Source of the DNA: a virus
IMG/VR virus record: IMGVR_UViG_3300025120_000004
Location: 1 to 61,012 of that record
Length of the DNA: 61,012 bases
Strand: one strand, 5' to 3'
Both the position numbers and the translations under genes were made by a program. Of the stretch, positions 2,796 to 58,100 are shown piece by piece (the stretch's first letter is position 1; every line of letters starts with the position of its first letter). The notes beneath the pieces are model-generated. The model made no database searches and was not told where the DNA came from. It worked only from the letters and a program-made list of their open reading frames with translations.

Positions 2796-2973
2796 CTTCT
2801 GTTAATTTTTGCGTCTCTCGCAAAACAGACTGAAGCTCTTTGATGGTATTATTTAAAGACTCATGGTCTTCATCCATTAACGATTCGTAAATATCGTCGG
2901 TCAGATTGTTGATTTGTTTCATCAACAAATTAATAAAGTTAATTGAGTTTCTACTGTTTTTTTGAATAGACAT
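2785..2973 (-). CDS. Small acidic helical protein, unknown
   Basis: A 62-residue product rich in Asn, Leu and Glu, predicted helical and possibly coiled-coil, without a recognised domain. It overlaps the metallophosphoesterase start by 11 bp, which supports translation from the same message. The start follows an A/T-rich leader typical of the block. Confidence 0.6.
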   Translation of the reverse strand: MSIQKNSRNSINFINLLMKQINNLTDDIYESLMDEDHESLNNTIKELQSVLRETQKLTEDEF

Positions 2974-3029
2974 TATGAATGGCGTTTACTAAAAATACAA
3001 ATTAAAAGTAATTAATCTATTAAAAGTTA

Positions 3030-3263
3030 TTAACCATCCATATTAACTATTAAATGCTTTCCTATGTTTGAATCTATTTTAGAGATGGCTTTGTATATTT
3101 GTTTAGACATACGTTTTACCTCATCTCTTTCTTTTTTTGTAGACTCACTACCTAAATTTGTGTACATATCACAGTCAATTCTAAACAGTTCATCTAATTT
3201 TTGTTTTATCGTCCAGGTTTTGAACTCAACAATTTTATCTATATTTTCGTAAGTGTATTTCAT
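3030..3263 (-). CDS. Small charged helical protein, unknown
   Basis: A 77-residue product, highly charged (many Lys, Glu and Asp), probably helical. It is co-directional with its neighbours, 56 bp upstream of the 62-residue gene and 20 bp downstream of the DnaA-IV-like gene. An open frame on the opposite strand over the same bases looks like a shadow. No function is assigned. Confidence 0.6.
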   Translation of the reverse strand: MKYTYENIDKIVEFKTWTIKQKLDELFRIDCDMYTNLGSESTKKERDEVKRMSKQIYKAISKIDSNIGKHLIVNMDG

Positions 3264-3283
3264 AATTTATTGTTAAAAACTTT

Positions 3284-3853
3284 TTATCTTAATGATGCTC
3301 TTGCGTCTAAACCTCCACCATTACATATTATTATTTCTGCTTCTTGGTTTTGTTTTTTCCATTTATAACCCTTTATAATTAAAGATGCTCTTTTATCGTA
3401 GTCTTCTTGTTCAGATAATGAAAGCGTTCGGTATTCTTTTTCTATATCAGTTAGCAAGTCATTAGATATTAATCTTTCATTAAGTGATTCTTTATAAGCA
3501 AGAAGCTCATTGTATTTTTGTTTTAAATCCTCATACTGCTGTTCTTTTTTATAATGATCGTCAACTTCATTTTTTAAAACATTCACCTTAAATATATCAT
3601 ACAATCTTGAGAGTCTTTTATTTCTCATTAACTCATCAAATAAATTAGACTTTGCATGTAGCACTGTTGCATGGTCTCTGTTTACCATTTGACCTATTTT
3701 TGATAAAGAAAAATTAGTTGTATCAGTTGCTATTTTAAAGTACAATGTTCTGTAAGAAACTTGTTCTGTATTTCTAGATTTAGTAGATATATCATAACCT
3801 GCACAATCATCTACATATTTTTTAATTACATTTAATTCATTATTTGTTGACAT
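3284..3853 (-). CDS. DnaA domain-IV-like DNA-binding protein with coiled-coil tail
   Basis: Residues about 25-75 resemble the C-terminal DNA-binding domain (domain IV) of bacterial DnaA. The segment NRDHATVLHA at about 58-67 matches the DnaA signature, and a preceding helix sits where DnaA has its arginine-containing helix. There is no AAA+ ATPase: the protein is only 189 residues and continues as a Lys/Glu-rich coiled coil at about 95-160. It may bind DnaA-box-like DNA at a phage origin, or compete with or recruit host DnaA. Both ideas are inference. It sits in the leftward replication block, 5 bp downstream of the preceding gene. A weaker relative may be encoded at 10572-10862. Confidence 0.65.
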   Translation of the reverse strand: MSTNNELNVIKKYVDDCAGYDISTKSRNTEQVSYRTLYFKIATDTTNFSLSKIGQMVNRDHATVLHAKSNLFDELMRNKRLSRLYDIFKVNVLKNEVDDHYKKEQQYEDLKQKYNELLAYKESLNERLISNDLLTDIEKEYRTLSLSEQEDYDKRASLIIKGYKWKKQNQEAEIIICNGGGLDARASLR

Positions 3854-3858
3854 ATTTA

Positions 3859-4170
3859 TTATTGTTTTATATTTAAGTTTAAGTTTATTGAGTCTAAGTA
3901 TTCATCTAGAGTTATCTGATATACATCTACTAGAACTATAGGTCCATCATCTTCTCTATAGTAATCGAATGAAAAGAAAACAGGATTACCTTTATTATCC
4001 ATTACGTTACCAGTCATATTTTTAATAAAACCTTTGGTTGATTCTATACCGTATATTGTATCTATTACTCCTCCTATTTTTTCAGCTGAGCCATTAGTAA
4101 AGTTTCTCATTTGAATAAGGAACATTTCATCTATTTCAAATTCCTCTGTATACTTCTGTTTTACATCCAT
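3859..4170 (-). CDS. Hypothetical protein in replication block
   Basis: A 103-residue acidic protein with no recognised domain. The central part (DGPIVLVDVYQITLDEY) looks like alternating beta strands. Its start lies inside the 3' end of the VRR-NUC gene (35-bp overlap), indicating tight coupling. Confidence 0.6.
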   Translation of the reverse strand: MDVKQKYTEEFEIDEMFLIQMRNFTNGSAEKIGGVIDTIYGIESTKGFIKNMTGNVMDNKGNPVFFSFDYYREDDGPIVLVDVYQITLDEYLDSINLNLNIKQ

Positions 4171-4378
4171 GTTTTTTTAATTCTTTTAGTCTATATTCTT
4201 GTAAGGCAGACACCCTGCCTCTTGGCTTTTTTACTTCTGAAAAAAGAACTTCACAGTTAGGTGGTATAGCTATAATATCAGGTATACCATTCTTATTAGT
4301 TTTAATCAACTTAATAACATAGTAACCTTCAGCTTCTAACTGATCTATTCGTTTTTTCTGAATTTGTTGTTCGGTCAT
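4136..4378 (-). CDS. VRR-NUC domain nuclease
   Basis: An 80-residue stand-alone VRR-NUC (PD-(D/E)XK superfamily) nuclease, the compact phage type. The active-site pattern is visible: GIPDII around residues 31-36 supplies the Asp, and SEVKKPRGRVSALQ around 47-60 gives the E-x-K and the helix with conserved Gln. Such proteins cut branched or flap DNA and accompany phage helicases. It overlaps the genes on both sides: its ATG shares bases with the preceding stop at 4378-4380, and 35 bp overlap the next gene. A role in recombination or replication-intermediate processing is inferred from family and neighbours. Confidence 0.8.
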   Translation of the reverse strand: MTEQQIQKKRIDQLEAEGYYVIKLIKTNKNGIPDIIAIPPNCEVLFSEVKKPRGRVSALQEYRLKELKKHGCKTEVYRGI

Positions 4379-6000: not shown

Positions 6001-8401
6001 TATATTCTTTGTTTTTATTTGTTACAAATACTATCCACCTACCATTTAGGTCTCTTCCGTCTTTCGGTTTTGTTTCCGTCTTAAACAAAGCAAACGAATT
6101 TAGCCAACGATAAAACTCTGTTCTAGATATAGTACGTTTTGCTTTAGGTGCAAAGTCAGGATTGTCAGCTATGAATTCTAAATACAATTCATTCTTGTAT
6201 ATCTTTTCATTGAACCTTATACTTTCGTTTTTGTAATCATCATCAAACAGCCCACACCATTCAACAAACTCGTGACAGGTATCTGCTGATAAGTGTCTAA
6301 CAGTTTGGTTCTTGAAGTCTCCTTTTATTAATCCCTTTGATAAGTAGAACATAAGATTCTCAACCATATAGTTGTCAAAGGAACACCACTCTTGTTCATC
6401 CCATTCTGAAAACAATAGCTTACCAAATTCAACAAGTGGAGTAAAGTCTTTGGTATAGAACTGCGAGAACTCAAGTTCCCACTTCCTACGCTCAAAGGAA
6501 TTACCTCTACCCTTTATAGCATAGTTAGTTGTAATAGCTACCTTTGGTGACTTACTGAAAGGAATCTTTATAGCATCCTTGTTTTTCTTTTCTAATGTAA
6601 GCCCTTCGGTTACAACACTAAACAATCTTTCAAAGTCAAAATGTTTCTTTACATCATCAAAGCATAGTACCTGAGTGTCAGCACTTACTAATTGATAAGC
6701 AAAACTTTTCTCAAAATTAAAAGACTTACCATCAATAGTAACGAGCTTCTTCATTTGTGATAGTGCATTCATAAACAAACCCTTACCTGTTCCACCCTCT
6801 GGATTCTCTGATATTACCTCATCATTTAATATTATTGCAGGACAATAAGATAAATTCTTATAAGCATGAAGCATATAACCAATTGTACTACGCATTGATA
6901 ATATTGTTTGCTTGTTTCCTCCTGATATGTTATTTATAAATGTTTTGTAGTCGCAATCAAACGAATCACATAAGTCAAAGTCACGATCAATAACCTGGTC
7001 TTTCCAAACATAACCACCCAAGTCAAGATAATCAATAGTTGTTTTCTTGTCCTTTGTAACTTTTACTGCACAATTTCTATAGTATAAGTACGCACTATCT
7101 TTATCATCTTCTATAAAGTATACATCTACTGTACCTAGTAATGATAAGAACTCTTCCCTAAAGAATCTAGTCTTATCAGCAAAGTAATTATATACAGACA
7201 TATCATCAAGGTCCTCAAGATATCCTAAGATAAAATCTTTTATCTCCTCCTCATTAGTATGGTCAATAAGATTGTTTGTTACTCTAACAAATATAAAATG
7301 TTTACTACCCTCTGGACAGAACTTATAAAACCCATGGTCTTCTAAGAACTGTCTAAATAAGTAATGTATTATTGTTATAACCCCTTTGTCATTTTTATTC
7401 CAAAATCTTTTCTCGCTCTCATCTTCTTCAATGGAAGTAATAACAGAATCAATTACAGCGTCTTCAATTTGGGTTTCAGATAACTGAAGACGAATCTCTT
7501 TTTTTGACACACCTCTTTTAAGTTTCATTCTAACCTGATTTACCTTGTCTTCATCTTCATAATACTTTGAACCAAAGTTTTGTTTTTGTGAGTAGGCTGA
7601 ATTAATAGTGGTCTTTATCTCACTAATTTTAAAGTCACTGCTTTCAAACTGAGACATAATATATTCTGCCAATGACTTGCTTACTCCATAGTCATTGAAT
7701 GCTGCTGCCAATATGTATATGTTATTGTTTCTTTCTCCATCAATAATCCCATACTTCTTAGTCCACCACTTCATAAGAATATCTACTATCTTATTCTCAT
7801 CAGTAACAGGTATAGTTGGTCTAGAAGAATATTTATCTACAACCTTATACTCTTGTTCTTCTATCTTATCCCACAAAAAAGAATTCTTATTTATATATAT
7901 CAATGGATCGTATGATTCATAACATACTCTTGATACATTCTTACTAGTCTTATCAAAGTAGCTTGAATTAAAATACTTTTCTAATGACATAAAGTAATTC
8001 TTATGATTGTTTGGTTCTTTAGGTATCTTAACTAAAGCCTTAAGTCCGTTTCCACTTGGAGATATAAATACTGAATATGTGTATCTATCTTTTGATAGTC
8101 GTTCTTTTTCAGACATCATATCTTTCTTGGTTTTATAACCATCAAAGTCCAGGCATATAAACCCACTGTGTACAGTTATACTATCATCTGCTCTCTTGTT
8201 AAACATTCCTGAGAAACAAATAGCAGGTAGGCTTTTCTTTAAACCCTGCCTAATCTCTTTGTCTTTCTCAGAACGTATTTGCTTTATAAGCTCTTTAGAT
8301 GTTCCATCTTTTATTCTATCTAATATTGATTGTATATCTCTAAAGAATGGAGTAGATGTATCTTTTATATTTCTAAATATAGTAACTTGATTTTCATCCA
8401 T
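5975..8401 (-). CDS. Primase-helicase: primase-like N-terminus plus SF3 (DUF5906-like) helicase
   Basis: An 808-residue multidomain replication protein. Residues 1-180 resemble the BT4734-like/VirE N-terminal or AEP-like primase region, with CLDFDG at 83-88 (acidic pair) and SPSGNGLKALV at 114-124. Residues about 205-272 look like a primase C-terminal helical domain (GERNNNIY at 222-229). Residues 500-660 form an SF3 helicase: Walker A GGTGKG at 536-541, Walker B VLCFDD at 578-583, motif C VAITTN at 621-626 and arginine-finger candidates RR at 638-639. It is expected to prime and unwind phage DNA. With no DNA polymerase in the genome, synthesis presumably relies on the host polymerase. Its start codon overlaps a 26-bp block repeated upstream of groEL. 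Confidence 0.85.
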   Translation of the reverse strand: MDENQVTIFRNIKDTSTPFFRDIQSILDRIKDGTSKELIKQIRSEKDKEIRQGLKKSLPAICFSGMFNKRADDSITVHSGFICLDFDGYKTKKDMMSEKERLSKDRYTYSVFISPSGNGLKALVKIPKEPNNHKNYFMSLEKYFNSSYFDKTSKNVSRVCYESYDPLIYINKNSFLWDKIEEQEYKVVDKYSSRPTIPVTDENKIVDILMKWWTKKYGIIDGERNNNIYILAAAFNDYGVSKSLAEYIMSQFESSDFKISEIKTTINSAYSQKQNFGSKYYEDEDKVNQVRMKLKRGVSKKEIRLQLSETQIEDAVIDSVITSIEEDESEKRFWNKNDKGVITIIHYLFRQFLEDHGFYKFCPEGSKHFIFVRVTNNLIDHTNEEEIKDFILGYLEDLDDMSVYNYFADKTRFFREEFLSLLGTVDVYFIEDDKDSAYLYYRNCAVKVTKDKKTTIDYLDLGGYVWKDQVIDRDFDLCDSFDCDYKTFINNISGGNKQTILSMRSTIGYMLHAYKNLSYCPAIILNDEVISENPEGGTGKGLFMNALSQMKKLVTIDGKSFNFEKSFAYQLVSADTQVLCFDDVKKHFDFERLFSVVTEGLTLEKKNKDAIKIPFSKSPKVAITTNYAIKGRGNSFERRKWELEFSQFYTKDFTPLVEFGKLLFSEWDEQEWCSFDNYMVENLMFYLSKGLIKGDFKNQTVRHLSADTCHEFVEWCGLFDDDYKNESIRFNEKIYKNELYLEFIADNPDFAPKAKRTISRTEFYRWLNSFALFKTETKPKDGRDLNGRWIVFVTNKNKEYNDGDQLVF

Positions 8402-8496
8402 GTCGATTTTATTTGTATATATATACTTTATATAATTATAATTAATTTAATTTTAGTTTGCCATATCTAAGGAAAATAATTGACATTTTCGACATA
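8400..8496 (-). promoter_or_regulatory. Leader of primase-helicase with TGTCG motifs and 26-bp block shared with the groEL upstream region
   Basis: Read on the minus strand, 8425-8400 consists of a ten-base TA run, one variable base, then AAATAAAATCGACAT, ending in the first two bases of the primase ATG. The same block, 25 of 26 identical and in the same orientation relative to transcription, is at 20289-20314. Further upstream a TATGTCGA copy (8489-8496) and a nearby TGTC (8482-8485) echo the TATGTCG repeats at 20131-20234. No TAnnTTTG element was found here. The shared block suggests a common binding protein or origin element. Confidence 0.55.
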
Positions 8497-8510
8497 GATA
8501 AGGTAAAAGA

Positions 8511-8530
8511 AAAGGGGTTTTTACACCCCT
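8511..8530 (-). terminator. Rho-independent terminator after the SSB-like gene
   Basis: On the minus strand AGGGGT, a six-base loop and ACCCCT form a perfect stem followed by a T-rich run. It lies 20 bp after the stop of the SSB-like gene and upstream of the primase-helicase leader, so it divides the leftward block into at least two transcription units. Confidence 0.75.
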
Positions 8531-8550
8531 AATCTTAGCAACACAAACTT

Positions 8551-8814
8551 TTAAAATGGTAAATCAGCTTGTTTTTCAGCCTGAACTTTAGTTACTTCTT
8601 CCTTTTTCTTAGGAACAAAAGTGTCAAGTTCAATGTATGGCTTTCCTCCCTTGCTGTTTAGCACGTTTAGGTTTACCCATCCATTCTTTTGATTGTTAGT
8701 TAAAAACGTAATAGCATCTTCAACCTTTACGCTGATGTTACCAATTACGAACTCTGGTGCGTTCTCTCTTCTCTTGAAAAGAAATCCGTCTGCAAATACT
8801 TTGTCTTGTGACAT
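8551..8814 (-). CDS. Single-stranded DNA-binding protein-like
   Basis: The preferred start is ATG at 8814, giving 87 residues (MSQDKVFADGF...). The body has an alternating hydrophobic pattern consistent with a small OB-fold. The protein ends in an acidic-hydrophobic tip, ADLPF, like the C-terminal tip of bacterial SSB that docks partner proteins. It sits directly downstream of the exonuclease and annealing genes and upstream of the primase, where phage SSBs are often found. An in-frame ATG at 8856 follows an AAAGGAG sequence, but the extra residues lack the domain pattern. Assignment rests on tail, size and context. Confidence 0.6.
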   Translation of the reverse strand: MSQDKVFADGFLFKRRENAPEFVIGNISVKVEDAITFLTNNQKNGWVNLNVLNSKGGKPYIELDTFVPKKKEEVTKVQAEKQADLPF

Positions 8815-8870
8815 AATAATAGTATTAATGTTGAGCGATGAGTTGGAGCATCGCATCTGACTCCTTTACT

Positions 8871-9608
8871 TTAAAACTGTTCGTACTCAATGTACTGTGT
8901 GATGTCCTCTGCTGAATCTTCTGCAAAGAATTTATTATATACTTCAATAGCTTTTAAAACCTTATCTCTACCCCTTAATATTGTTTCAGGAGAAGGCTTT
9001 GCTATCTTTAACTTAAGAGTTGTCTTATCTATTATATAAAACTCTACAGGCTTACCAAACAACTGTTCGTAAACGTAGGCTTGACTATCATAATTATAAT
9101 CATTGGCACTCCATTTAAACTTGTCAACATTACCAGTTGTCTTTATATCTATAACTCTTGTCTGAGTAATTATATCAGCTTTTCCTTTCCAATCTACACC
9201 AAACATATTAGTTACAGCAGGTTTCTCATATACATTTCCTTCTGCATATATATCTGTATACATTACAAAGTTTGACTTCATAGCATCAACCCAAGTGTTG
9301 ATCTTTTCTACTTCTTTTGTAAGCAAGACATCATAAGGATGAAGGTCATTGTCTTTTATATACTCTTTAAAACCTTTGGTTGCTCTACTAGATACATCCA
9401 TTACAGAGTATTCTTTCAGCTTATGTGGCTCTAACATAGCTGTATGAAAATACCCACCCTCTATTAGGGCTAGGCTTTTCTCTTTCTTTCTAAAATTTCT
9501 AGGGTTTTTTAGTAAGCTATAAATATCTGAGTTAGATAAGTATTGCTGACCAACTTTACCATAGTAATTACTATCGTCTTTGAGTTGTTCAATTATATTA
9601 TTTTGCAT
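8871..9608 (-). CDS. RecB-family (PD-(D/E)XK) exonuclease, YqaJ/DUF3799-like
   Basis: A 245-residue nuclease with the RecB/Cas4-type catalytic pattern: Asp145 in GKADII, Asp154 and Lys156 in VIDIKTT, and a QxxxY motif (QAYVY, 176-180). The N-terminal part (YLSNSDIYSLLKNP at 23-36) matches the opening of phage RecE-like and YqaJ-like exonucleases. It is expected to resect double-stranded ends for the single-strand annealing protein encoded just upstream, forming a two-component recombinase pair. Its start overlaps that gene's stop by 11 bp. The active site looks complete. Confidence 0.8.
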   Translation of the reverse strand: MQNNIIEQLKDDSNYYGKVGQQYLSNSDIYSLLKNPRNFRKKEKSLALIEGGYFHTAMLEPHKLKEYSVMDVSSRATKGFKEYIKDNDLHPYDVLLTKEVEKINTWVDAMKSNFVMYTDIYAEGNVYEKPAVTNMFGVDWKGKADIITQTRVIDIKTTGNVDKFKWSANDYNYDSQAYVYEQLFGKPVEFYIIDKTTLKLKIAKPSPETILRGRDKVLKAIEVYNKFFAEDSAEDITQYIEYEQF

Positions 9609-10194
9609 ACGTAGAAAGTTCTTTTTTAATTGCAGCAGTCAATGTAAACTTCTGCTCTACTTTAGATATGGTAGATGCAAATGTTTCATTCTTGTTAGCC
9701 TTTACAAAATTAACTACATCATTCCACTTATCGTGTGTCTTTTTTAGTGTAGTCTTTTTAACTGAAGCAGATACTTTTCTAGGAGCAGTCTCACTTATAT
9801 CAGCAAGGTCTTCACCTGCCCATAAAGATAACCCTAATCCATGCATAGCAATAGCTTTAACTGTACTACGCTGTATAGTTTTATTTACTGCAAATGAAGT
9901 AATCTTATCAATAGATAATGATTGGTTGTTGTGGCCCATAATAGGCAGATAATCTATATGCTCTGTACCACCTATAGTAATACCTACTTTTACATAAGCA
10001 GTAGATCCATCACTAAAGTAATTAAGACCTGTGTGTTCTGATTCATATACAGTCCTGTTTGAATCAGGGTACTTGTCTTTTACTATAGCCCAGGCGTATG
10101 CCCAAGATAAGTAATCAAACCTTCCTTTCTTTTCTACTTTGTCCTTTACATTGATTGATGTAAGTTCCTTAAATGTTGATTTTGTGTTTCCCAT
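9598..10194 (-). CDS. Single-strand annealing protein, Sak/DUF1071-like
   Basis: A 198-residue protein whose first 135 residues fit the phage Sak (DUF1071, Rad52-like) annealing family: a DYLSWAYAWAIVKDKYP segment near 27-43, a beta-rich core and the conserved AVNKTIQRSTVKAIAMHGLGL stretch near 102-122. The C-terminal third is Lys/Thr-rich and probably flexible. It should anneal complementary strands exposed by the adjacent RecB-family nuclease. Order (annealase, exonuclease, SSB) and the 11-bp overlap with the nuclease support one recombination operon. Confidence 0.75.
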   Translation of the reverse strand: MGNTKSTFKELTSINVKDKVEKKGRFDYLSWAYAWAIVKDKYPDSNRTVYESEHTGLNYFSDGSTAYVKVGITIGGTEHIDYLPIMGHNNQSLSIDKITSFAVNKTIQRSTVKAIAMHGLGLSLWAGEDLADISETAPRKVSASVKKTTLKKTHDKWNDVVNFVKANKNETFASTISKVEQKFTLTAAIKKELSTYAK

Positions 10195-11083: not shown

Positions 11084-11115
11084 CAAATATAATATTTATT
11101 TATTTATTATGCAAC
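11084..11115 (-). promoter_or_regulatory. Bacteroidetes-type promoter of recombination operon
   Basis: On the minus strand GTTG (11115-11112) is followed after 20 bases by TATATTTG (11091-11084), close to the Bacteroidetes consensus TTTG-N19-21-TAnnTTTG. The first gene starts 26 bases downstream at 11058. The upstream methyltransferase gene ends at 11107, inside the promoter. Confidence 0.7.
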
Positions 11116-12150
11116 TTTTATTTGTTTTAATATGTGTTCTATTACTTTAACTGTCCATCCATTTCCTAACATCTTATATCTTTGTGCATTAGATACACCT
11201 TCGGTATAGTTATCAGGAACTGTTTGCAGTCTCTCGCATTCAATTGGAGTTAATTTTCTCCAATTATATTTCTCATTTATGATACCTTGATTTGGTGAAA
11301 TTGTAGTAACGCAATGAGCTTTGTCTTTTATTAGTCTACCTCTTCTAGTATTACTATTAGGAAATGAAAGATCTAATCCCTCTCCAATACCTGCAGCGGC
11401 ATAACCTTTCTTTGTTGCTTCAGGAAAGCAAACCTTATCGTCTATTCTAATCATACTTCGTTGGCTTCTTTCTATACTGTTCCACCATACAGCTCCATCA
11501 TATCTTGCTGTAAGACAATACGCTTTACCTTTATTAGTAACCATCCTCTCATCAACTACTGAACTTTCAAGCTCTCCTTCTGTTTGAATAATATCGCTTA
11601 GCTTTACCCCTAGGTCTATAGGGGCAAATATATAAGGTATATTAGTCCAATAGTATCTCTTCCTGGTTTGTGCAGATACAAGTGCTGAGTCTATGTATAT
11701 TGGCTCAACTCCTAAGAACTCTGATATAGTATCTCTGTGTTCTTTTGTCATCTTTACATTCTCCAACAAGAAATACTTTGGCTTACATTCTTTAACTAAC
11801 CTCACAAACTCAAAAAACAATTTGCTTCTAGGGTCTTCAAAGTTTAAGTTTTTACCTGCTTTACTAAATCCTTGACATGGGCTACCACCCATGATAAGAT
11901 CTATTCGTCTAGATTTTGGTATGTCCTGTATATATTCAGAACTTTTCTCTCTTACCAAACACTTTCTGTAATCAGAATAACTTAGCTTGGTTACATCCCC
12001 AACATGAATCATGTCAGGGAAGTTTTTCTTTGCTATTTTTATAGCATACTTGTCAATCTCTGATGCGTAGTAGTTGTCTACTTTTACACCAAGATTCTTG
12101 AGGGCTATCTGTCCACAGGACATGCCATCGAATAATGATAGTACATTCAT
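11107..12150 (-). CDS. DNA (cytosine-5) methyltransferase
   Basis: A 347-residue C5 methyltransferase with all main motifs: AdoMet-binding LSLFDGMSCGQ near the N-terminus (motif I), the catalytic GGSPCQGFS (motif IV, Cys nucleophile), LLENVKM (motif VI), SAQTRKRYYW (motif VIII) and a C-terminal RKLTPIECERLQ...MLGNGW (motifs IX-X). The motif VIII region resembles the bacterial DNMT3-like subgroup. The target-recognition segment between VIII and IX is short, so the recognition site cannot be read. No restriction enzyme gene is nearby, so a protective role against host restriction, or a regulatory role, is likely. It lies between small accessory genes and the recombination operon. Confidence 0.9.
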   Translation of the reverse strand: MNVLSLFDGMSCGQIALKNLGVKVDNYYASEIDKYAIKIAKKNFPDMIHVGDVTKLSYSDYRKCLVREKSSEYIQDIPKSRRIDLIMGGSPCQGFSKAGKNLNFEDPRSKLFFEFVRLVKECKPKYFLLENVKMTKEHRDTISEFLGVEPIYIDSALVSAQTRKRYYWTNIPYIFAPIDLGVKLSDIIQTEGELESSVVDERMVTNKGKAYCLTARYDGAVWWNSIERSQRSMIRIDDKVCFPEATKKGYAAAGIGEGLDLSFPNSNTRRGRLIKDKAHCVTTISPNQGIINEKYNWRKLTPIECERLQTVPDNYTEGVSNAQRYKMLGNGWTVKVIEHILKQIKVA

Positions 12151-13893: not shown

Positions 13894-14898
13894 TTAAAAA
13901 TTAAATTGATTAATAATATGTTCATCGTCTATAATATTACCGTAACATATATCACAGTAATGGTCGTTGTAATCTAATACAGGCTCAGGGTTGGCACATT
14001 GGCACTCGTAATATTCACTGCCACCCAACAAAGGATTGTCATAAAATCCATACACCTCTTGAGTAAATGTCTTGTGATGCTCTCCCTCATCTTTTACAGT
14101 ATCATTGAAGTATATATAAGGAGTAAGTACAGTACACATATCTTCTAATATAACCTCTGCCTGTCGTCTCTCATACCAAGTAGGGTGTCCCTCTAGCCTG
14201 TCAATACTTGGTAGGCACGTCTTCCTGTCCACTAAGAATAGTTCAATATCTATGTGGTGTCCTACACCTGGTTTGTCAAGTACATAAGGTATACCTTGTA
14301 TCAACATAGGGTATTTCTCTACAGTGTTTGCCTTGCCTACATATATAGAGTCTGCTAGGTGGTAGTCGTAATTACTACCATACCTCTTGAGTGTGCCATA
14401 CACACCAATCAATACCTTGTCAAGTACATTTGTTTTACTATACCAAATGTCATTTACTTTAGTCCAATCAGACTTGTTGTATAGTGTATACTTCTTAGTC
14501 TTTAGGTTGGCAGTAACAAACCTTGAGTCATTCATCTCCAACACTTCTCTCCATCTATTGGGTGGTACGTCTGAAAGTATCTCGGCTAAGTGCTGAGTGT
14601 CTGTCTTTTTCTTGTTACCTAGTCCGTATACTGTACCATTTTGAAACAGTATGTTGTCCTTGTTGATGTCGAATGGGTGACAGTTAGCCTTGCTGACCTC
14701 ACCGATCGTAGCATACCTAAAGTGTGCAATGTATGGTCGGTTAGTTTTGAGTATCATATAGTCTGTGCTATCGTGATAGGTCACGTTCCACTTGTCTAGC
14801 CACAATACGCCTAGTCCATCTGGGTTCTTGACTGATGATGCAATTAGTGTCTCAGTCTTAATTTGTTTCTTGTTGTCTTTAATAATAATTATACACAT
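13894..14898 (-). CDS. Class II glutamine amidotransferase fused to gamma-glutamylcyclotransferase, with C-terminal zinc ribbon
   Basis: A 334-residue fusion. Residues 1-155 look like a class II (Ntn) glutamine amidotransferase: Cys2 can be the exposed nucleophile (MCIII), and AHFRYATIGEV...CHPF at 58-76 and NGTVYG at 87-92 match the family's Arg-binding and oxyanion segments. Residues 164-290 match the gamma-glutamylcyclotransferase/AIG2 fold: VYGTLK at 167-172 and LEGHPTWYER at 235-244, with Glu236 the likely acid-base residue. A CxC...CxxC ribbon ends the protein (299-318). It lies 2 bp after an amidoligase-like gene. Phage amidoligases linked to amidotransferase and cyclotransferase genes were described from comparative genomics by Aravind's group. 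The likely job is making or trimming a gamma-glutamyl or amide modification. The substrate is unknown. Confidence 0.7.
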   Translation of the reverse strand: MCIIIIKDNKKQIKTETLIASSVKNPDGLGVLWLDKWNVTYHDSTDYMILKTNRPYIAHFRYATIGEVSKANCHPFDINKDNILFQNGTVYGLGNKKKTDTQHLAEILSDVPPNRWREVLEMNDSRFVTANLKTKKYTLYNKSDWTKVNDIWYSKTNVLDKVLIGVYGTLKRYGSNYDYHLADSIYVGKANTVEKYPMLIQGIPYVLDKPGVGHHIDIELFLVDRKTCLPSIDRLEGHPTWYERRQAEVILEDMCTVLTPYIYFNDTVKDEGEHHKTFTQEVYGFYDNPLLGGSEYYECQCANPEPVLDYNDHYCDICYGNIIDDEHIINQFNF

Positions 14899-14900
14899 TG

Positions 14901-16148
14901 TTATTCTTCGTTAGTGTGGTTAATAAATTCATTTATATTTGATGATGTCTCTTCTACAATTAAGTACCTTCTAAAGTGATGTGCTAATTCAAATATAGCA
15001 TCTACTTTTTGGTCATTACCATTGTACATCTTCTTGATAATGTGACGTATGTTTGAAAGAAATACTTCGAAATGTACCCTGCGTTCAAATGAGTGGTGCA
15101 TAATCTTGTACATCAAATCATAACGTAACTTTAATTGTTTTACATTGGCCACTGCCGATGGTATCCTAAGCTCAACCTTACAACCCTTGACGTGAACAGG
15201 TGCATACTTGACATTGTTATCTTTCTTTATGCCCTTGTTACTACAGCAATAGCTACGTTTCAATCGGTATCGGTATAGTGCATACAGTATGGCTAACTTC
15301 TCCCTCATTTTGTCTACCAACTCATAGCCATCTGTCATACCATTTACAGATACAGTAATGTGACCACCACAAGTAATATCTTTAGGGCTGTTAATTACCT
15401 TCGATGCCTCGTCCATCATATCGAATACCTTAAGTCGTGCCTTACTTCTAGGAGAGCCTAAAGGTAGTATGTGAGTCACTGCCTCAACACCACAAGAACT
15501 ATCGGTCTCGAATCCTGCAAACAAATCATACCAACCTACTTGGTCACCTTCGTCAGCAGCATCTCCATTTTCTGTATGGAATACGTTTTTCTCTACCTCA
15601 AAGCCAATGTTAAACTGCGTACTGTGGCAATGATATGGACTGTTAAGGTTTTCTACATAGTCTTTACACGTATGATAGTTTCCAATTTCATTACGTTCAT
15701 ATTCTGAACCTGGCATGTTGTCGGTGTCATAATAATATTGATCATCTGCATCGCAGTAATTCGCATCATCTTCTTGAACATAGCTATCTATGTCAATACA
15801 GTATGTTGTATGGTCACAATGTAACCAATGGTCTGATGCTCTTCCTCTTTCAATCCAATAGTAATCGGACTCACAGAAATTTTCTTCGTGTCCGTAATCA
15901 CCACAATAACTTTCTGAAAAGTCATCATCAGTTGAATAAAACTGTTGTGAAACAGTACAATAATAAACATCATCTTTAGGGTGATATCTATCATCATCTA
16001 CTGTATGCTCATAGTTCTCATCTCTGAACTCTATCGTTACCACGTCGCCATCAACATCGTCTATATCATATACACGATAAGCTTCGTCACTTGGTATGTG
16101 TCTATCCATTACCTTAGACCATACCATTTCTTTTAATTGTGTTTCCAT
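14901..16148 (-). CDS. Amidoligase-like (COOH-NH2 ligase) protein with Cys/His-rich acidic N-terminus
   Basis: A 415-residue protein. Residues 178-400 carry the pattern of the amidoligase/COOH-NH2 ligase family (glutamine-synthetase/gamma-GCS-like fold): IGFEVEK at 181-187, ETDSSCGVEAV at 214-224, CGGHITVSV at 260-268 and VELRIPS at 325-331, giving the expected Glu, His and Arg ligands for Mg-ATP and substrate. Residues 30-175 are very acidic and Tyr-rich with spaced Cys and His pairs (Cys64, 82, 92, 111, 117, 132), perhaps tandem zinc-binding modules that contact a target. It is predicted to join an amine to a carboxyl group with ATP, working with the adjacent amidotransferase/cyclotransferase. 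Local GC is clearly higher than in the structural genes. Confidence 0.65.
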   Translation of the reverse strand: METQLKEMVWSKVMDRHIPSDEAYRVYDIDDVDGDVVTIEFRDENYEHTVDDDRYHPKDDVYYCTVSQQFYSTDDDFSESYCGDYGHEENFCESDYYWIERGRASDHWLHCDHTTYCIDIDSYVQEDDANYCDADDQYYYDTDNMPGSEYERNEIGNYHTCKDYVENLNSPYHCHSTQFNIGFEVEKNVFHTENGDAADEGDQVGWYDLFAGFETDSSCGVEAVTHILPLGSPRSKARLKVFDMMDEASKVINSPKDITCGGHITVSVNGMTDGYELVDKMREKLAILYALYRYRLKRSYCCSNKGIKKDNNVKYAPVHVKGCKVELRIPSAVANVKQLKLRYDLMYKIMHHSFERRVHFEVFLSNIRHIIKKMYNGNDQKVDAIFELAHHFRRYLIVEETSSNINEFINHTNEE

Positions 16149-16151
16149 TTT

Positions 16152-16403
16152 TTAAATAGTATAAATTATATTATAGTTATCCTTACCAGGAATGTCTTCG
16201 TACAAGGCTGCGCCTCCATCGTTACCTTCGTCGTCACTCTGTAATATTATGTAACTCTCATCAGTAAACATAATAATGAGTGGTCTTTTGTACCAACCAA
16301 ACTGATCGGCTTCTTCTCTTGTCATATACCTACAAGAGTCTATCTTCTTTCCTTTTAATAGCTTGTCAAACTCTGCTGAATGTGTTTCGTCTTTTGTTCT
16401 CAT
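16152..16403 (-). CDS. Small protein with conserved-looking YMTREEADQFGWYKRP segment
   Basis: An 83-residue protein. The segments CRYMTREEADQFGWYKRP and SDDEGNDGGA resemble a short uncharacterised protein that I have seen in many marine phages. No enzyme motif is visible. It lies 3 bp upstream of the amidoligase gene and is probably on the same message. Confidence 0.65.
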   Translation of the reverse strand: MRTKDETHSAEFDKLLKGKKIDSCRYMTREEADQFGWYKRPLIIMFTDESYIILQSDDEGNDGGAALYEDIPGKDNYNIIYTI

Positions 16404-20368: not shown

Positions 20369-21940
20369 ATGAATCCAAAAGAATTATCCTTCGACCAAGA
20401 AGGGAGAGACAAATTATTAAACGGTATAACTACAATTTCAAAAGCCGTTAAAAGTACATTAGGCCCACTAGGTAAGACTGTACTAATCGAATCACAGAAT
20501 CATACACATGGAATAACGGTAACTAAAGATGGAGTTACGGTTGCTAAGTCTATAGATTTAGAAGATGCGGTAGAGAATTTAGCTATACGTATGATGAAGG
20601 AGGCTGCTGAGAGGACTGCTACTTCTGCAGGTGACGGCACTACTACTGCGATTGTTTTAACGGAGGCTATTGTAAAGGAGGGTATGCGTGTTATAGAAAA
20701 AAATCCTGATATCAATACCACTGAATTAATACGAGACATAAATAGTATTACTGATGAATTAATAAAGTCATTAGGTAAGTCTTCTAAAAAGGTAACTGGG
20801 AAAACTTTGCGTGATGTAGCTACGATATCTGCTAACAACGATTCTGTTTTGGGTAAAATGATTGCTAGTGCTTACAAGGAATTGGGTAGAGATGGGGTTC
20901 TTACTGTAGAGAACAGTAAAACTGACGAGACTTATTATGAGGTAACAAAAGGAATTAAGATTGACAGAGGATACAGTTCTAAGTTATTTATCAATAATCA
21001 CAGAAACGATGAATGTATATTAGATGATGTTTATGTCCTGATGACTGATATGGAGATTACTAATATTCTTCAGATTGAAAATATATTAAAACCAATTATT
21101 AATCAGAATAAGAAATTACTGATTATCGGTAACTGCGCACAGAATGTAACTAATACATTAGCTGCCAATGTAGTTCAGAATAATTTAAAGCTTTGTAATA
21201 TTATACCACCATCGTTTGGATACAAGACTAATGAGCTTATGAGTGATATTGCTCTGGCAATAGGTGCGAAATATTTCAGTGAATCACAGGGAGATAACAT
21301 AGGTATGTTGACAATGAGTGATTTAGGTCATGCAGATAAGATTATAGTAGGAAAAGATAGTACTGTTATTATAAATGATGAGGAAAGTAGTAAGGATGCT
21401 AAGATTAGAATAGATGAATTGAAGGTTCAGAAGGATAATAACAAGGATAAGAAGGAAAGGGACTTTATTACTGAGCGTATTGCCCTGTTATCAGGTGCTG
21501 TAGGTGTAATATATGTAGGAGGAAACTCGGATGTAGAGCAAAAAGAGAAGTATGATAGGGTAGAAGATGCTGTTTGTGCAGTAAGATCGGCTATTGAAGA
21601 GGGGATTTTACCAGGCGGAGGCTTGGCTCTGGTAAGATGTGCAGAGAATTTAAGGGATGGACACGCTAATGACGTGTTATATTTAGGATTATTAGCTCCA
21701 TTTGAGCAAATATTAGTAAATGCAGGTGAAGATATAGCAAATGTAAGAGATAAAACGTGTAGTTGCTCTAAAGTTCCATATAATTACGGATATGATGTAA
21801 AAAACAAAGTATTTGGAGATATGTATAAGATGGGAGTTATAGATCCTGCAAAAGTTACAAAGAATGCACTAAAAAATGCAGTAAGTGTAGCGACAACAAT
21901 ACTAAGTACTAATGCAATAGTAACAATGAAAAGAAAATAA
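20369..21940 (+). CDS. groEL: Phage chaperonin GroEL (Cpn60)
   Basis: A 523-residue chaperonin, near the usual 540. The ATP site GDGTTT is at 88-93, STLGPLGKTV at 29-38 matches the N-terminal nucleotide contact, and the Asp of DRVEDA (residue 400) corresponds to catalytic Asp398 of E. coli GroEL. GGGLALVR follows at 417-424. Equatorial, intermediate and apical domains are all present. The flexible Gly-Gly-Met tail is absent: the protein ends AIVTMKRK. It probably folds phage proteins such as the capsid or the very large virion proteins. It is followed after one base by groES and has its own promoter. Phages encoding both chaperonin partners are uncommon. Confidence 0.95.
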   Translation: MNPKELSFDQEGRDKLLNGITTISKAVKSTLGPLGKTVLIESQNHTHGITVTKDGVTVAKSIDLEDAVENLAIRMMKEAAERTATSAGDGTTTAIVLTEAIVKEGMRVIEKNPDINTTELIRDINSITDELIKSLGKSSKKVTGKTLRDVATISANNDSVLGKMIASAYKELGRDGVLTVENSKTDETYYEVTKGIKIDRGYSSKLFINNHRNDECILDDVYVLMTDMEITNILQIENILKPIINQNKKLLIIGNCAQNVTNTLAANVVQNNLKLCNIIPPSFGYKTNELMSDIALAIGAKYFSESQGDNIGMLTMSDLGHADKIIVGKDSTVIINDEESSKDAKIRIDELKVQKDNNKDKKERDFITERIALLSGAVGVIYVGGNSDVEQKEKYDRVEDAVCAVRSAIEEGILPGGGLALVRCAENLRDGHANDVLYLGLLAPFEQILVNAGEDIANVRDKTCSCSKVPYNYGYDVKNKVFGDMYKMGVIDPAKVTKNALKNAVSVATTILSTNAIVTMKRK

Positions 21941-21941
21941 T

Positions 21942-22199
21942 ATGAAAGCAGTAGGAAAATACATTGTAATTACAGAAATTAAAGAACAACAAAAAACACA
22001 GTCAGGAATATTATTGACTTCAGATGATACAAACTTGCAAAGATACAAAAAAGGATTAATAGTTATTCCAGGCACTGATGTGTCCGTTGTATCAAAAGGT
22101 GACGCTATTTATTACGATAAAAACGCAGGTCATAAAATGATGTTAGAAGAAGAGGTGGTTACAATTATATCTGAAAGAGATATTGTAGTGGTACTATAG
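21942..22199 (+). CDS. groES: Phage co-chaperonin GroES (Cpn10)
   Basis: An 85-residue GroES, shorter than the usual 97. The mobile loop spans about 14-30, and SGILL (21-25) takes the place of the GroEL-binding Gly-Ile-Val-Leu tripeptide region. GD with YYDKNAGHK at 53-65 and a final SERDIVVVL strand match the fold. It forms the lid for the adjacent GroEL. Both are probably one operon because only one base separates them. Its stop overlaps the stop of the opposing winged-helix gene by 6 bp. Confidence 0.9.
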   Translation: MKAVGKYIVITEIKEQQKTQSGILLTSDDTNLQRYKKGLIVIPGTDVSVVSKGDAIYYDKNAGHKMMLEEEVVTIISERDIVVVL

Positions 22200-53238: not shown

Positions 53239-55161
53239 ATGGGAAATAAATTAGATTCAATAAGATATGCATTAGGTCAAGGCCTTACAGGTGTAGCAAA
53301 GCCAACAAAAACTTTAGAGGCTGTTGATAATTTTGTAGAGGATGTAGAAGCTTGGAAAAAAAACATAGACGATCAACGTCTTAAGTTAAAAACTGATACT
53401 GAAACAAAAGTAAGAGAAGCTGAAAAAGAAGCTTATGCTAATTTACCTAATACTAAGACAGAAAGAGACCTTGTAATACAAGGTCTAGCTAATTATAAGG
53501 ATATGCTTTATAATAATATGTCTATGGTTCAGAATGGTGTTTTAAAACCAGAAGATAATCTTATATTTCAGGAAAACGGAAAGCAATCATTTGAAATAGC
53601 TGCTGATTTAATAAATAACTATAGCACTAGAAAAGAACAAGCCATGAAAGAGGCTAGTGGATATTATGATGATGAAGGAAATTTTGTAGAACCTACAGCA
53701 GGAGATTATCAAGCTGCTCTTCAACGAATAAATGATGAGTTTATGATTCCAGGGGGACAGGAATTTAAATTTATGAGCAATGGAATGGGTAATATTACTA
53801 TGTTCAAAACTAAAATTGATGAAGAAACAAAAACAAAAGTTTTAGATTTAGATGCTGACGGAAATCCAATTCCAATAGAGGGTCTGTCTAACGTTCCTAT
53901 GTTAGCTTATCAAAACAACAGAAATGCTAATGCCCCTATGTTCGTTCTTGCTAATGAGGTTACTAAGTTCACAAGAAAAGATGGTCTTTTAGCTACTTCT
54001 TATCAGGAGCTGATTGATGTTGAAGGCATGGTGGGTGGTGTTAAGGATAATATGAGTCAAAGCCCAGGGTTTCAGGAGTCAGTAAAACAGGCATCAAGTT
54101 CTCTTACTAATACTGTTCCTAAAGTTGTTAGTATGTTAGCAGACAATGGACCTGATGCACAACAAACAACAACATTGACTCCTTCAGAATGGGATGCTTT
54201 ATCTGATGCACAAAAAAACGAAACTATATCTTTTGAATATACTGATTTTGATGGTTCAACTAAAAAAGGAGTTAAAAGTAAATATCTACAGGTTAAGCTT
54301 GCTACTAATAATTCAATGGTCGCTGTACTAAGTGACCGAGATCAATTGGCAGCAGAACAAATAGCACAGACAGCTCTTATATCTTCATTAGAGCAAACCA
54401 TAGACCCAGGAGTAAAGGTTGGTGATTTCGCTGCACGAGTAGACCCAAACAAGGATAAGCAAGTAGATACTTTTACACTTATTGACCAAGTAGTGATAGA
54501 TGGAAATTCCAACAGCTTAGAAGCTATAGTTAGGCAAGACCAAAATATAAATGATTACAAAGTTACTAAAGAAGGTATTGTCTTTGTAAAGACAGATGGA
54601 ACTCTAACAGCTCCTATTGACGTTAGCTCAGGTTCTGCTGTTGATGTAGGTAAGCTGTTTGCTTCAGAGCTAGGATATAATGCAGAAACATACGCTAATA
54701 AATCTAAAGCAGGCTCAGTAATTATTAACACAAAAGTTAAAGATTTCACAGGCTTTACGTCTCCTAGAGAAGAATACGGAGGTCTAGGTAGATTAGCTAT
54801 TAGTAAGGATAAAAATAAAATTACCTATGCGTCTGAATATATTAAAAAAGCTGATGAAAGATTGATGGCAGCTCAAGCTCAGGTTGTAGTTGATAAGGCT
54901 CGTGCAAGGTATGGGAATATACCTAATATAAGAGTAAGTTTTGATGACTTATCTAAGCCGAATGGAGAAGATGAGATAAATCTAACTATAGATGGAGTGA
55001 AATACAAAAACGTAGGTTATACATCAGATAATTATCAATGGTTAATGGAGAATATAGATAGAGCGTTAATAGGAGAAACACCAGAGGGGAAAATTAGTGG
55101 AGGTAGTACAAATAGTGGAGGTGGAGGTTTAGATAATCTAGGTAAAAAAGAAGGTGAATAA
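53239..55161 (+). CDS. Putative internal virion protein
   Basis: A 640-residue charged helical protein (long coiled coil near 30-70: VEDVEAWKKNIDDQRLKLK) without enzyme motifs. It ends in a Gly/Ser-rich tail, and its stop codon shares a base with the start of the giant gene (TAATG). With the 323-residue protein and the giant protein it forms a three-gene ejection set like T7 gp14-gp15-gp16 (inference). Confidence 0.55.
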   Translation: MGNKLDSIRYALGQGLTGVAKPTKTLEAVDNFVEDVEAWKKNIDDQRLKLKTDTETKVREAEKEAYANLPNTKTERDLVIQGLANYKDMLYNNMSMVQNGVLKPEDNLIFQENGKQSFEIAADLINNYSTRKEQAMKEASGYYDDEGNFVEPTAGDYQAALQRINDEFMIPGGQEFKFMSNGMGNITMFKTKIDEETKTKVLDLDADGNPIPIEGLSNVPMLAYQNNRNANAPMFVLANEVTKFTRKDGLLATSYQELIDVEGMVGGVKDNMSQSPGFQESVKQASSSLTNTVPKVVSMLADNGPDAQQTTTLTPSEWDALSDAQKNETISFEYTDFDGSTKKGVKSKYLQVKLATNNSMVAVLSDRDQLAAEQIAQTALISSLEQTIDPGVKVGDFAARVDPNKDKQVDTFTLIDQVVIDGNSNSLEAIVRQDQNINDYKVTKEGIVFVKTDGTLTAPIDVSSGSAVDVGKLFASELGYNAETYANKSKAGSVIINTKVKDFTGFTSPREEYGGLGRLAISKDKNKITYASEYIKKADERLMAAQAQVVVDKARARYGNIPNIRVSFDDLSKPNGEDEINLTIDGVKYKNVGYTSDNYQWLMENIDRALIGETPEGKISGGSTNSGGGGLDNLGKKEGE

Positions 55162-58100
55162 TGGAAGAGTTATATAATGCACTTGTTGAACAAGGAAAAT
55201 ACACAAAATCTTTTGAGGATTTTAAAGTACAGTTTGGAGAGCCTGAAAAAACTAAACTTCTTTATGATGCATTAAATTCTTCAGGAGATTACACTAAATC
55301 TTTTGAAGACTTTACGTATCAATTTGGATTCGCTGAAAAAAAAAATCAAGTCGTTACTCCTTCCACTTCAGAAGAGGTCGTTACGGAATCCACTACAGAA
55401 ATCACGCAACCAACAATTCCTGGCTCTTCGGATTCTTCCGAAAATATTCCTGATGTACAGATTGAAAACAATGTAGAAATTAAAGAGGATTTAGAAGTTA
55501 CAGATATACCTGAACAAAAATACTCTAATGAGTTATTTGATGAATTAACTTCTCAAGTACAAATAGCTCAACAAATAAATACCGAACAAAATAAAAGAAA
55601 CTTTTATAAAAATAAAGCTGAATCTTCTTTTGTTAGAAGAAAACCGAAACCAAAAAAGAAAAATCCTGATGCCTTATTAGAAATAGATAACGATTTAAAA
55701 GAAAAAATATTAAGCGATTTTAATATTAGAAAATCTATTGAATATGGAATTGTTAGCGAAACAGATGTAGATAATGCTCTTAAAGGAGATATTAATTTAA
55801 TAAATAAATTAAAAGAAATATCTGTAAAAAATCCAAAGGAATACAAAAAATTATTAAGCGAAAAAAGATTAGATAAAACTTATGCTTTTGAAGAAACATC
55901 TGAATTAAATGAATACCAAGTTAATCAAGATGAAGAATCTAGAAGTTTAGATTTAAAGAAAAAGATTGAAGCTTATGATTTAGAGACACAAAGACTTTTA
56001 GCTGAAAATCCTAATGCAACTGAACAAGAAATAAATGAATTAGTTTATAGGCCTAACGACCCTAACACTTATACAGATGAAGAATTTGAAATTTATGAGA
56101 ATATGGATTATTCTCCAACTGGATTTGAAGATTCTAACATACATAAAATGTATGACAGTGAAAAGTTAAAGTCAATTGAAGGATTTAATGTAAAAGATTT
56201 TGATGGGTACTTAAAAGAGCAGGGATACATGGACAGATACGTGGAGCTTCTTGATGACGAAACTATATCTGAAGATGGAAGATATCAAGATTATTCAGGG
56301 AACTACAATCCAACTCTTGCAGCCGAAAGATTAAAAGCACAATATTTAACAAACTACATAAATAATCAAGTAGAAAGAAATGTAGAGTTTCAAGTTTTAG
56401 ATTATCAATTAAAAAATAAAGGCCGACACCCTTCTTTAGATGGTGTAGAAATTAGTTTTAATACAGGGGTAGATGATATTGCTATGGCTTCTTACATAGA
56501 GGAACAATTTCCTACATTAACTGCAAAGCTTAAAAACCAAGATGTTGAAAATCAAGAAAACTATCAAAGATATTTAGATGGAGATAACCCTTGGTTTACA
56601 CAATCGGTAAAACAAGGTTGGCGTTCTGTAGAAGATAGATTACATAGCTCTTCTAAAGGAGTTTATGGATTTATTGGAATGAATAGTGTGGCTGATGAAA
56701 TACGAATGCGAGATGCTCAAGATGATTTAGAGAGAGATGATTTTATGAGATATGCATATACGTCAGGTAAAAAATCTTTTTATAATGGTAGAGAGTACGG
56801 AATAGATGAAAGAGGTCAGATATTTGATTTAGAAATAAAGAAAAACGTAACAAACGTTTTAACAGATACTATGGCTGATGCTATAAGAAAAAAGGTAGCT
56901 GGAAGCAGTGAGACATTTAAAAGTTTTAGTGGCTCAGGTACGGTAATAGCAACAACAGGTATAGCTGCTGATATGTTATTGCAAATATCTCTTACTCGTG
57001 GAGTAGGTAATTTAGGTAGAGGTGGTGCGGCTTTTTTAGGTAGTTTCGATAAAGGTAAAAAAGTTGTTAGTGGATTATCTAGTATACCAATGAAAGCAAC
57101 TACAGCTTCGGCTATGATTGCTCAAGGAACATTATTTTCAACTAATTTAGCTAGTAGCACTTATGACCAGGCTATTGCTAATGGATTAGATCAAGCTACA
57201 GCTATAGAACTAAGGCAAAAGGCAGGTATGCAGGGATTTGGATTAGGGTCATTAACAGCTCCAATATCTACACAGACTCTAGCCATGAATAAAATATTTG
57301 GTAAAAAGGGAACTGAAAAACTAAGTAGAGGACTTGTTGATGCTTATCAAAAAGCAGGAGATAAAGGTTTTGCTGCATACATTCAAAGGGTTAAAGGAAC
57401 AATAATACAAAACTATCCTTCTTATTTAAAAGAAGGAGGTAAAGAGATATTTCAGGAAAATGTACAGCAGGCAGGTCAAGCTTTTGTGATTGCAGAAAAT
57501 GTAAATGAGATTGCACAAAAAGAAATAATGAATAACACCATTACAGGTGCGGAGTACACAAACACAACAATACTAGCAGGTCTTGCAGGTTTATTAATGC
57601 CTTTTGGTGGTGATCTTAAATCAGCCACATCTAAATCTATTAAGGCTAACTTTAGTCCAGGGGAAGCCGCAATTGACAGATTAGAAGCTTTACATGGTTT
57701 ATCTAAAGATGTAGATAAAACAAAAGAGTTTTTAAATAGTATGGTAACCAAAGGTGTTTATACTGAGGAACAAGTTTCTAATCTATTGTCTGATATTGAT
57801 TTGTATGTAAACACTATAAACAGTATACCAACAAACTTGAGTCCTGAAACTTCATTGTTTGTAATGCAGTCAATTAACGACATTCAAAAACAAGAGGAGT
57901 TAAAAAAGAAAAGAGATAAATCATTTCATCCAGAGATAGATGAAAAAATACAAGAACTTAGAAACGAAATAACAACACGAACTCAATTTGATTATGTTAA
58001 TGCACAAGGCAAGTTAAGGCTAAAGGACCAAGCAGCCAAAGAACTTACTAGAGAAGCAGAAGAAAGAGGAGAAAAGAATTTTACTATAGATGATGGAGCT

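Follow-up and report, generated by a model that had tools for sequence, protein, structure and literature searches.

Organisation of the locus

The stretch of DNA examined here (hereafter the window) comprises 61,012 bases, i.e. positions 1 to 61,012 of virus record IMGVR_UViG_3300025120_000004. Two adjacent genes on the minus strand, located in the replication/early region, are predicted to encode a carboxylate-amine ligase and a fusion of a class II glutaminase, a cyclotransferase-like domain and a zinc ribbon. These two ORFs and a third, shorter one occupy the positions and strand given in an initial annotation of the sequence. The features are as follows:

13894 to 14898, minus strand: whole gene for the predicted GAT-II/GGACT/zinc-ribbon fusion, 334 aa (ORF, Pfam, AlphaFold model and fold match)
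13945 to 14004, minus strand: putative zinc ribbon, residues 299-318 of the fusion (four conserved Cys)
14050 to 14418, minus strand: gamma-glutamylamine-cyclotransferase-like domain, residues 161-283 (Pfam, fold and profile matches)
14419 to 14898, minus strand: predicted class II glutaminase (Ntn) domain, residues 1-160 (fold match and invariant residues)
14899 to 14900, minus strand: 2-base spacer separating the stop codon of the ligase from the ATG of the fusion (junction sequence)
14901 to 16148, minus strand: whole gene for the predicted amidoligase (GS/GCS-fold carboxylate-amine ligase), 415 aa (ORF, fold, profile and conservation)
14997 to 15623, minus strand: predicted ligase catalytic core, residues 176-384 (VIA alignment and residue counts)
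15624 to 16148, minus strand: acidic Cys/His/Tyr-rich beta-hairpin extension of the ligase, residues 1-175 (model and comparison among relatives)
16152 to 16403, minus strand: third ORF, 83 aa (ORF list)

Given the junction sequence, translational coupling of the ligase and fusion genes across the 2-base gap is likely. The 83-aa ORF was considered as a third member of the unit and rejected; a homologue was found in 12 of 99 related loci and in L004 follows the fusion at a distance of 2 kb, and since the homologue sits elsewhere in related phages the gene is not regarded as part of the unit. Assignment to a defence system was also rejected, there being no relevant PADLOC match for the ligase or the fusion.

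The fusion protein

A Pfam scan of the fusion detected the GGACT family (PF06094) with an E-value of 4e-13 and GATase_6 at 3e-4, the latter under its cut-off. The protein was modelled using AlphaFold (mean pLDDT of 88). Residues 2-160 of the model matched the glutaminase domain of GlmS (1xff; Z 11.4, 156 residues aligned), and residues 161-283 matched the mouse and human GGACT structures (3jud, Z 19.2; 1vkb, Z 19.3) with lower scores against GGCT (Z 12.2) and ChaC2 (Z 9.6). The cyclotransferase domain is closest to the gamma-glutamylamine enzyme GGACT and not to the glutathione-type enzymes; GGACT was likewise retrieved from PDB sequences by a profile of the fusion family (1.9e-16).

Conservation was examined in 51 relatives. 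Residues C2, R61, T64, H74, N87, G88 and D100, which from GAT-II biochemistry we take to be the GlmS-type catalytic residues with C2 as the nucleophile, were invariant (51/51), as were the YGTL motif (residues 167-170) and E236 (i.e. the Glu of the LEG motif), which corresponds to the catalytic Glu E82 of human GGACT. Four Cys of the zinc ribbon were present in 49 of the 51, in a CxC...CxxC arrangement in the window and as CxxC...CxxC in most relatives. The fusion is predicted from these data to consist of a GlmS-type class II glutaminase, a GGACT-like domain and a zinc ribbon, in agreement with the three-part architecture proposed in the initial annotation.

A divergent GS/GCS-fold ligase

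Identification of the ligase depended on structure and on profile-profile comparison. Amidoligase_2 (PF12224) never exceeded its gathering cut-off in a Pfam scan of the ligase and 54 relatives (55 members), gave no match in a search of the window's own record, and PDB sequences searched directly with the profile of the ligase likewise yielded no match. The AlphaFold model (pLDDT of 91) returned glutamine synthetase (GS), gamma-glutamylmethylamide synthetase (GmaS) and YbdK as the top rows in Foldseek. In VIA, residues 174-385 matched 1r8g best (Z 9.3, rmsd 4.0, 192 residues aligned) followed by 1tt4 (Z 9.2), and the matches listed were all GS/GCS proteins. Phage proteins labelled 'Amidoligase enzyme' in a viral library were also matched. 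A GS-like fold in 14901-16148 and an Ntn fold in the fusion, on which the initial annotation had staked its reading, were both seen in the predicted structures.

The ligase family was aligned by hhalign with 12 phage Amidoligase_2-type proteins (11 of these, i.e. 10 + 1, confirmed as such), giving an E-value of 1.9e-8 and a probability of 95%; controls gave 0.14 (best of 30 column shuffles), 0.22 (reversed) and 0.07 (unrelated family). The match was weak with five amidoligases alone (E 0.0037, probability 9%) and became clear after seven were added.

The core contains the residues GFEVE (E184, E186), E214/D216/S218, E222, H263, R295, C301, Y315 and E326/R328. Complete conservation (55/55) was observed for G182, E184, E186, E214, D216 and E222, corresponding to the GhExE motif of strand 1 and the acidic residues of strands 2 and 3, and for H263 and E326-x-R328 (i.e. 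the Ex[RK] motif of strand 6), bearing out the earlier statement that key residues of both proteins are intact. In the Amidoligase_2 family (PF12224), the GhExE, DxS, E, H, RxxxxxC, Y and ExR elements correspond one to one with invariant positions of the ligase, but the second His of the HxH motif is mostly Thr in the window's family. This strand-4 position (after H263-x), defined for the superfamily as [HD]x[NH], is occupied by T in 44 of the 55 members, by N in 7 and by C/S in 4. As H-x-T mostly replaces H-x-[NH], the handling of metal or phosphate may differ from that of known members. The phiEco32 'COOH.NH2 ligase' family (PF14395) was rejected as an identity for the ligase due to the lack of a profile match. 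The protein is predicted to be a GS/GCS-fold carboxylate-amine ligase, representing a distant sister group of Amidoligase_2 and not a member of the Pfam family.

The N-terminal extension of the ligase carries a net charge of approximately -20 per 100 residues. The initial annotation had described a long acidic Cys/His-rich extension; this element is real, and is restricted to the window's ligase subclade (12/55 relatives), to which it was also essentially confined among the fetched loci. The extension of the window's ligase has no CxxC pair and metal binding is doubtful. A tblastn search of phage records with the extension gave no match. In comparisons of the window with a near relative (L001), dN/dS values were 0.065 for the ligase core, 0.13 for GAT and 0.07 for GGACT, and 0.63 for the extension; the catalytic domains are under purifying selection and the extension evolves fast. 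In another virus (L002 2934-4180, on a contig also represented as L011 and L090), with a ligase identical to the window's over the matched segment, the ligase frame is broken into ORFs 2934-3293 and 3365-4180. The break falls between extension and core and is either an assembly error or real.

Conservation of the gene pair in related viruses

A scan of viral contigs yielded 228 relatives of the ligase and 202 of the fusion. All 102 distinct related pairs had the ligase first, followed by its fusion partner on the same strand. Within the window's subclade, near relatives included, most pairs are separated by 1-3 bases, and nearly all other pairs by 0.4-4.9 kb. Loci with a single gene all ended within 2.5 kb of it in the direction in which the partner would be expected, with the exception of phage C75C1. 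Many of the related loci also shared genes for SSAP (83/99) and GroEL (74/99), so the phages compared are kin, the 102 pairs are not independent events and the co-occurrence of the two genes partly reflects shared ancestry. The pair exposes a divergent amidoligase family (228 ligase relatives in this one scan) that is missed by Pfam, and such systems are therefore undercounted.

The initial annotation had regarded the three-part chain as unusual. This was not supported; GAT and GGACT domains were encoded in one ORF 155 times among the fetched loci, as against two GAT-only ORFs, and with the zinc ribbon present at the frequency given above the three-part fusion is the rule in the window's clade. 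One of the GAT-only ORFs is a 90-aa piece (L049) and the other a complete 247-aa gene (L020). In the latter locus (7578-9709), a ligase with the extension accompanies a GAT-only partner that lacks GGACT and has Cys pairs of its own, representing an unfused or a reduced form. A protein of about 214 aa (cluster 4), acidic in several members, is encoded directly upstream of the ligase in 78 of the 99 loci (e.g. L007 9088-9696); it has no Pfam match and was not found in the window.

Relation to predicted phage cassettes

Comparative work from 2008 noted amidoligase genes adjoining a glutamine-amidotransferase-like gene or an Aig2-type cyclotransferase gene (PMC2588565), and a peptidoglycan modification cassette has been predicted in marine and other podoviruses (PMC5498523); the link to such partners made in the initial annotation is supported by both papers. 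The cassette (phiEco32, Pseudoalteromonas phages RIO-1 and PSA-HP1, Salinivibrio phage CW02 and Pseudomonas phage tf; PMC5498523) resembles the window's locus in bringing together an amidoligase, a class II GAT and a GGCT in the early/replication region, but differs in using separate genes and in adding a second COOH-NH2 ligase and an ATP-grasp enzyme of the RimK type. Searches for the ATP-grasp family PF08443 and for the second ligase (PF14395) found neither in the window record, which may be a fragment. Absence of these two partners makes it less secure simply to equate the locus with the wall cassette; several smaller phage sets likewise lack them. An amidoligase (PF12224) and GATase (PF13522) pair, without a reported cyclotransferase fusion, occurs in the OM43 phages MEP401/402 (PMC10580990).

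Examination of gene orders showed that ligase, GAT and cyclotransferase are separate genes in phiEco32, RIO-1, CW02, BroderSalsa and Vibrio phage 1.293.O, and that partial sets exist in Arthrobacter phages (ligase and GAT) and in Bacillus/Geobacillus phages (ligase and GGCT). As these activities occur separately and in various subsets in other phages, the window's form is a fused, compact version of a kind already predicted. Comparable pairs were seen in two phages. Phage C75C1 (OQ984151) has a GAT-II/GGCT fusion, 37% identical overall, downstream of an amidoligase, but this fusion has no zinc ribbon and its partner ligase scores as an ordinary member of Pfam Amidoligase_2 (3.5e-30). In MW202828 (Podoviridae sp. 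ctfjg026), both genes are adjacent and in the same order with GroEL/GroES nearby and a zinc ribbon in the fusion, whereas the ligase shares ~35% identity across the core, its N-terminal region is unrelated and the fusion has a longer tail. On these sequence comparisons, the pair is a compact, widespread and fused version of the predicted phage cassette, built on a divergent ligase. The literature surveyed contained no biochemistry on the pair or any close relative and no experimental test of the predicted phage cassette.

Proposed function of the pair

The pair was observed to combine the folds described above with intact active sites, purifying selection on the catalytic domains, a strict gene order and tight spacing. 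The suggestion in the initial annotation that it could add and remove gamma-glutamyl or amide groups is a reasonable inference. We favour, with a probability of roughly 0.55, a two-gene module that forms, supplies and reverses gamma-glutamyl (iso)amide bonds in the course of infection, with the host wall or surface as the likeliest target. The ligase would phosphorylate a carboxylate with ATP, as do GS and GCS enzymes, and couple it with an amine or ammonia. The class II domain would hydrolyse glutamine to provide ammonia and/or glutamate, making the pair a glutamine-dependent amidotransferase split over two chains in an arrangement similar to that of GS-fold GatB with its amidase partner; alternatively, this domain might hydrolyse a gamma-glutamyl amide in the manner of EgtC. 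The GGACT-like domain would cleave gamma-glutamyl from a gamma-glutamyl-amine in the form of 5-oxoproline, so that the product is reset or trimmed, and the zinc ribbon, together with the ligase's variable acidic extension, may recruit a substrate or partner.

The module would most likely act on host wall peptides, at amino or carboxyl groups, or on other molecules of the host surface; the alternatives are host proteins and small metabolites. Wall or surface molecules are placed first because of published predictions for related phage cassettes, for which wall modification and superinfection exclusion have been proposed (PMC5498523, PMC10580990), the latter role being cited for the amidoligase and GATase pair (PMC10580990). 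No wall-synthesis or wall-hydrolysis gene was identified adjoining the pair.

The substrate could instead be small, and we view as possible, if rather unlikely, a gamma-glutamyl protection cycle for an amine, an amino acid or a glutathione-like thiol, in which the ligase adds gamma-Glu and the EgtC-like GAT-II and GGACT domains remove it. Small gamma-glutamyl compounds are the substrates of GGACT and EgtC type enzymes. Weak NCBIfam matches, for the ligase with glutamate-cysteine ligase (PRK13517, 4e-4) and for the GAT domains of fusion relatives with EgtC (0.0045), point in the same direction, but both are far below the cut-offs, and both the extension of the ligase and the conservation of the zinc ribbon suggest contacts with macromolecules. 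Glutathione-like peptide metabolites have been proposed for amidoligases encoded beside GATase or Aig2 genes (PMC2588565).

Another reading is a system that would tag host or virion proteins with peptides or glutamyl groups, with the GGACT domain as the eraser, by analogy with pupylation and depupylation. GGACT acts on gamma-glutamyl-epsilon-lysine, which is the form taken by an isopeptide, and the fast-evolving acidic extension fits a partner-binding surface. PafA, the ligase of Pup, shares its fold with the amidoligases (PMC2588565). A tag was sought among small conserved ORFs of the neighbourhood and none had a conserved C-terminal Glu, Gln or Gly; the window has no small ORF between the ligase and fusion genes, and clusters 23, 40, 37 and 4, which in other phages lie upstream of the pair or separate its members, were rejected as a Pup-like tag for want of such a conserved C-terminus, that of the small intervening ORFs being variable. 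Tagging of this kind is considered improbable. A similarly low weight is given to the speculative proposal of a reversible two-protein conjugation of a protein or surface, wherein the ligase would write the (iso)amide, the single chain would both feed and erase it, and the acidic extension would act as an adaptor that picks the target. As a minimal two-protein form with intact active-site residues, the pair should be easy to express and assay and could show what phage amidoligases modify.

Genomic setting

The window contains genes for terminase, portal, a Sak-type annealing protein and a BT4734-like primase. A C5 cytosine methyltransferase gene (11107-12150, minus strand; Pfam 3e-50) was detected and no restriction partner for it was identified among the window genes scanned. 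Proximity of the pair to this methylase and to DNA-metabolism genes raises the idea of DNA or nucleotide modification using the amide nitrogen of glutamine, as in Gat-QueC systems, and phage base-modification enzymes do include GAT-II domains. This function is very improbable; the methylase was the sole base-modification enzyme recognised among the proteins scanned, and GS-fold amidoligases are not known from such pathways.

A megablast search of phage records with the first 25 kb of the window gave no match, and a genome scan produced one hit in total, on a contig binned as Cytophagales. This single hit and the BT4734-like primase suggest a Bacteroidota host. An ORF of 1950 aa (55161-61010, plus strand) is open at the end of the record, which is therefore probably cut inside a large gene. 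Chaperonin genes groEL and groES (20369-22199, plus strand), identified by sequence and by homology to MW202828, are divergent from the early operon; the ORF at 20369-21940 (MNPKELSFD...) has a counterpart annotated as groEL in that related phage.
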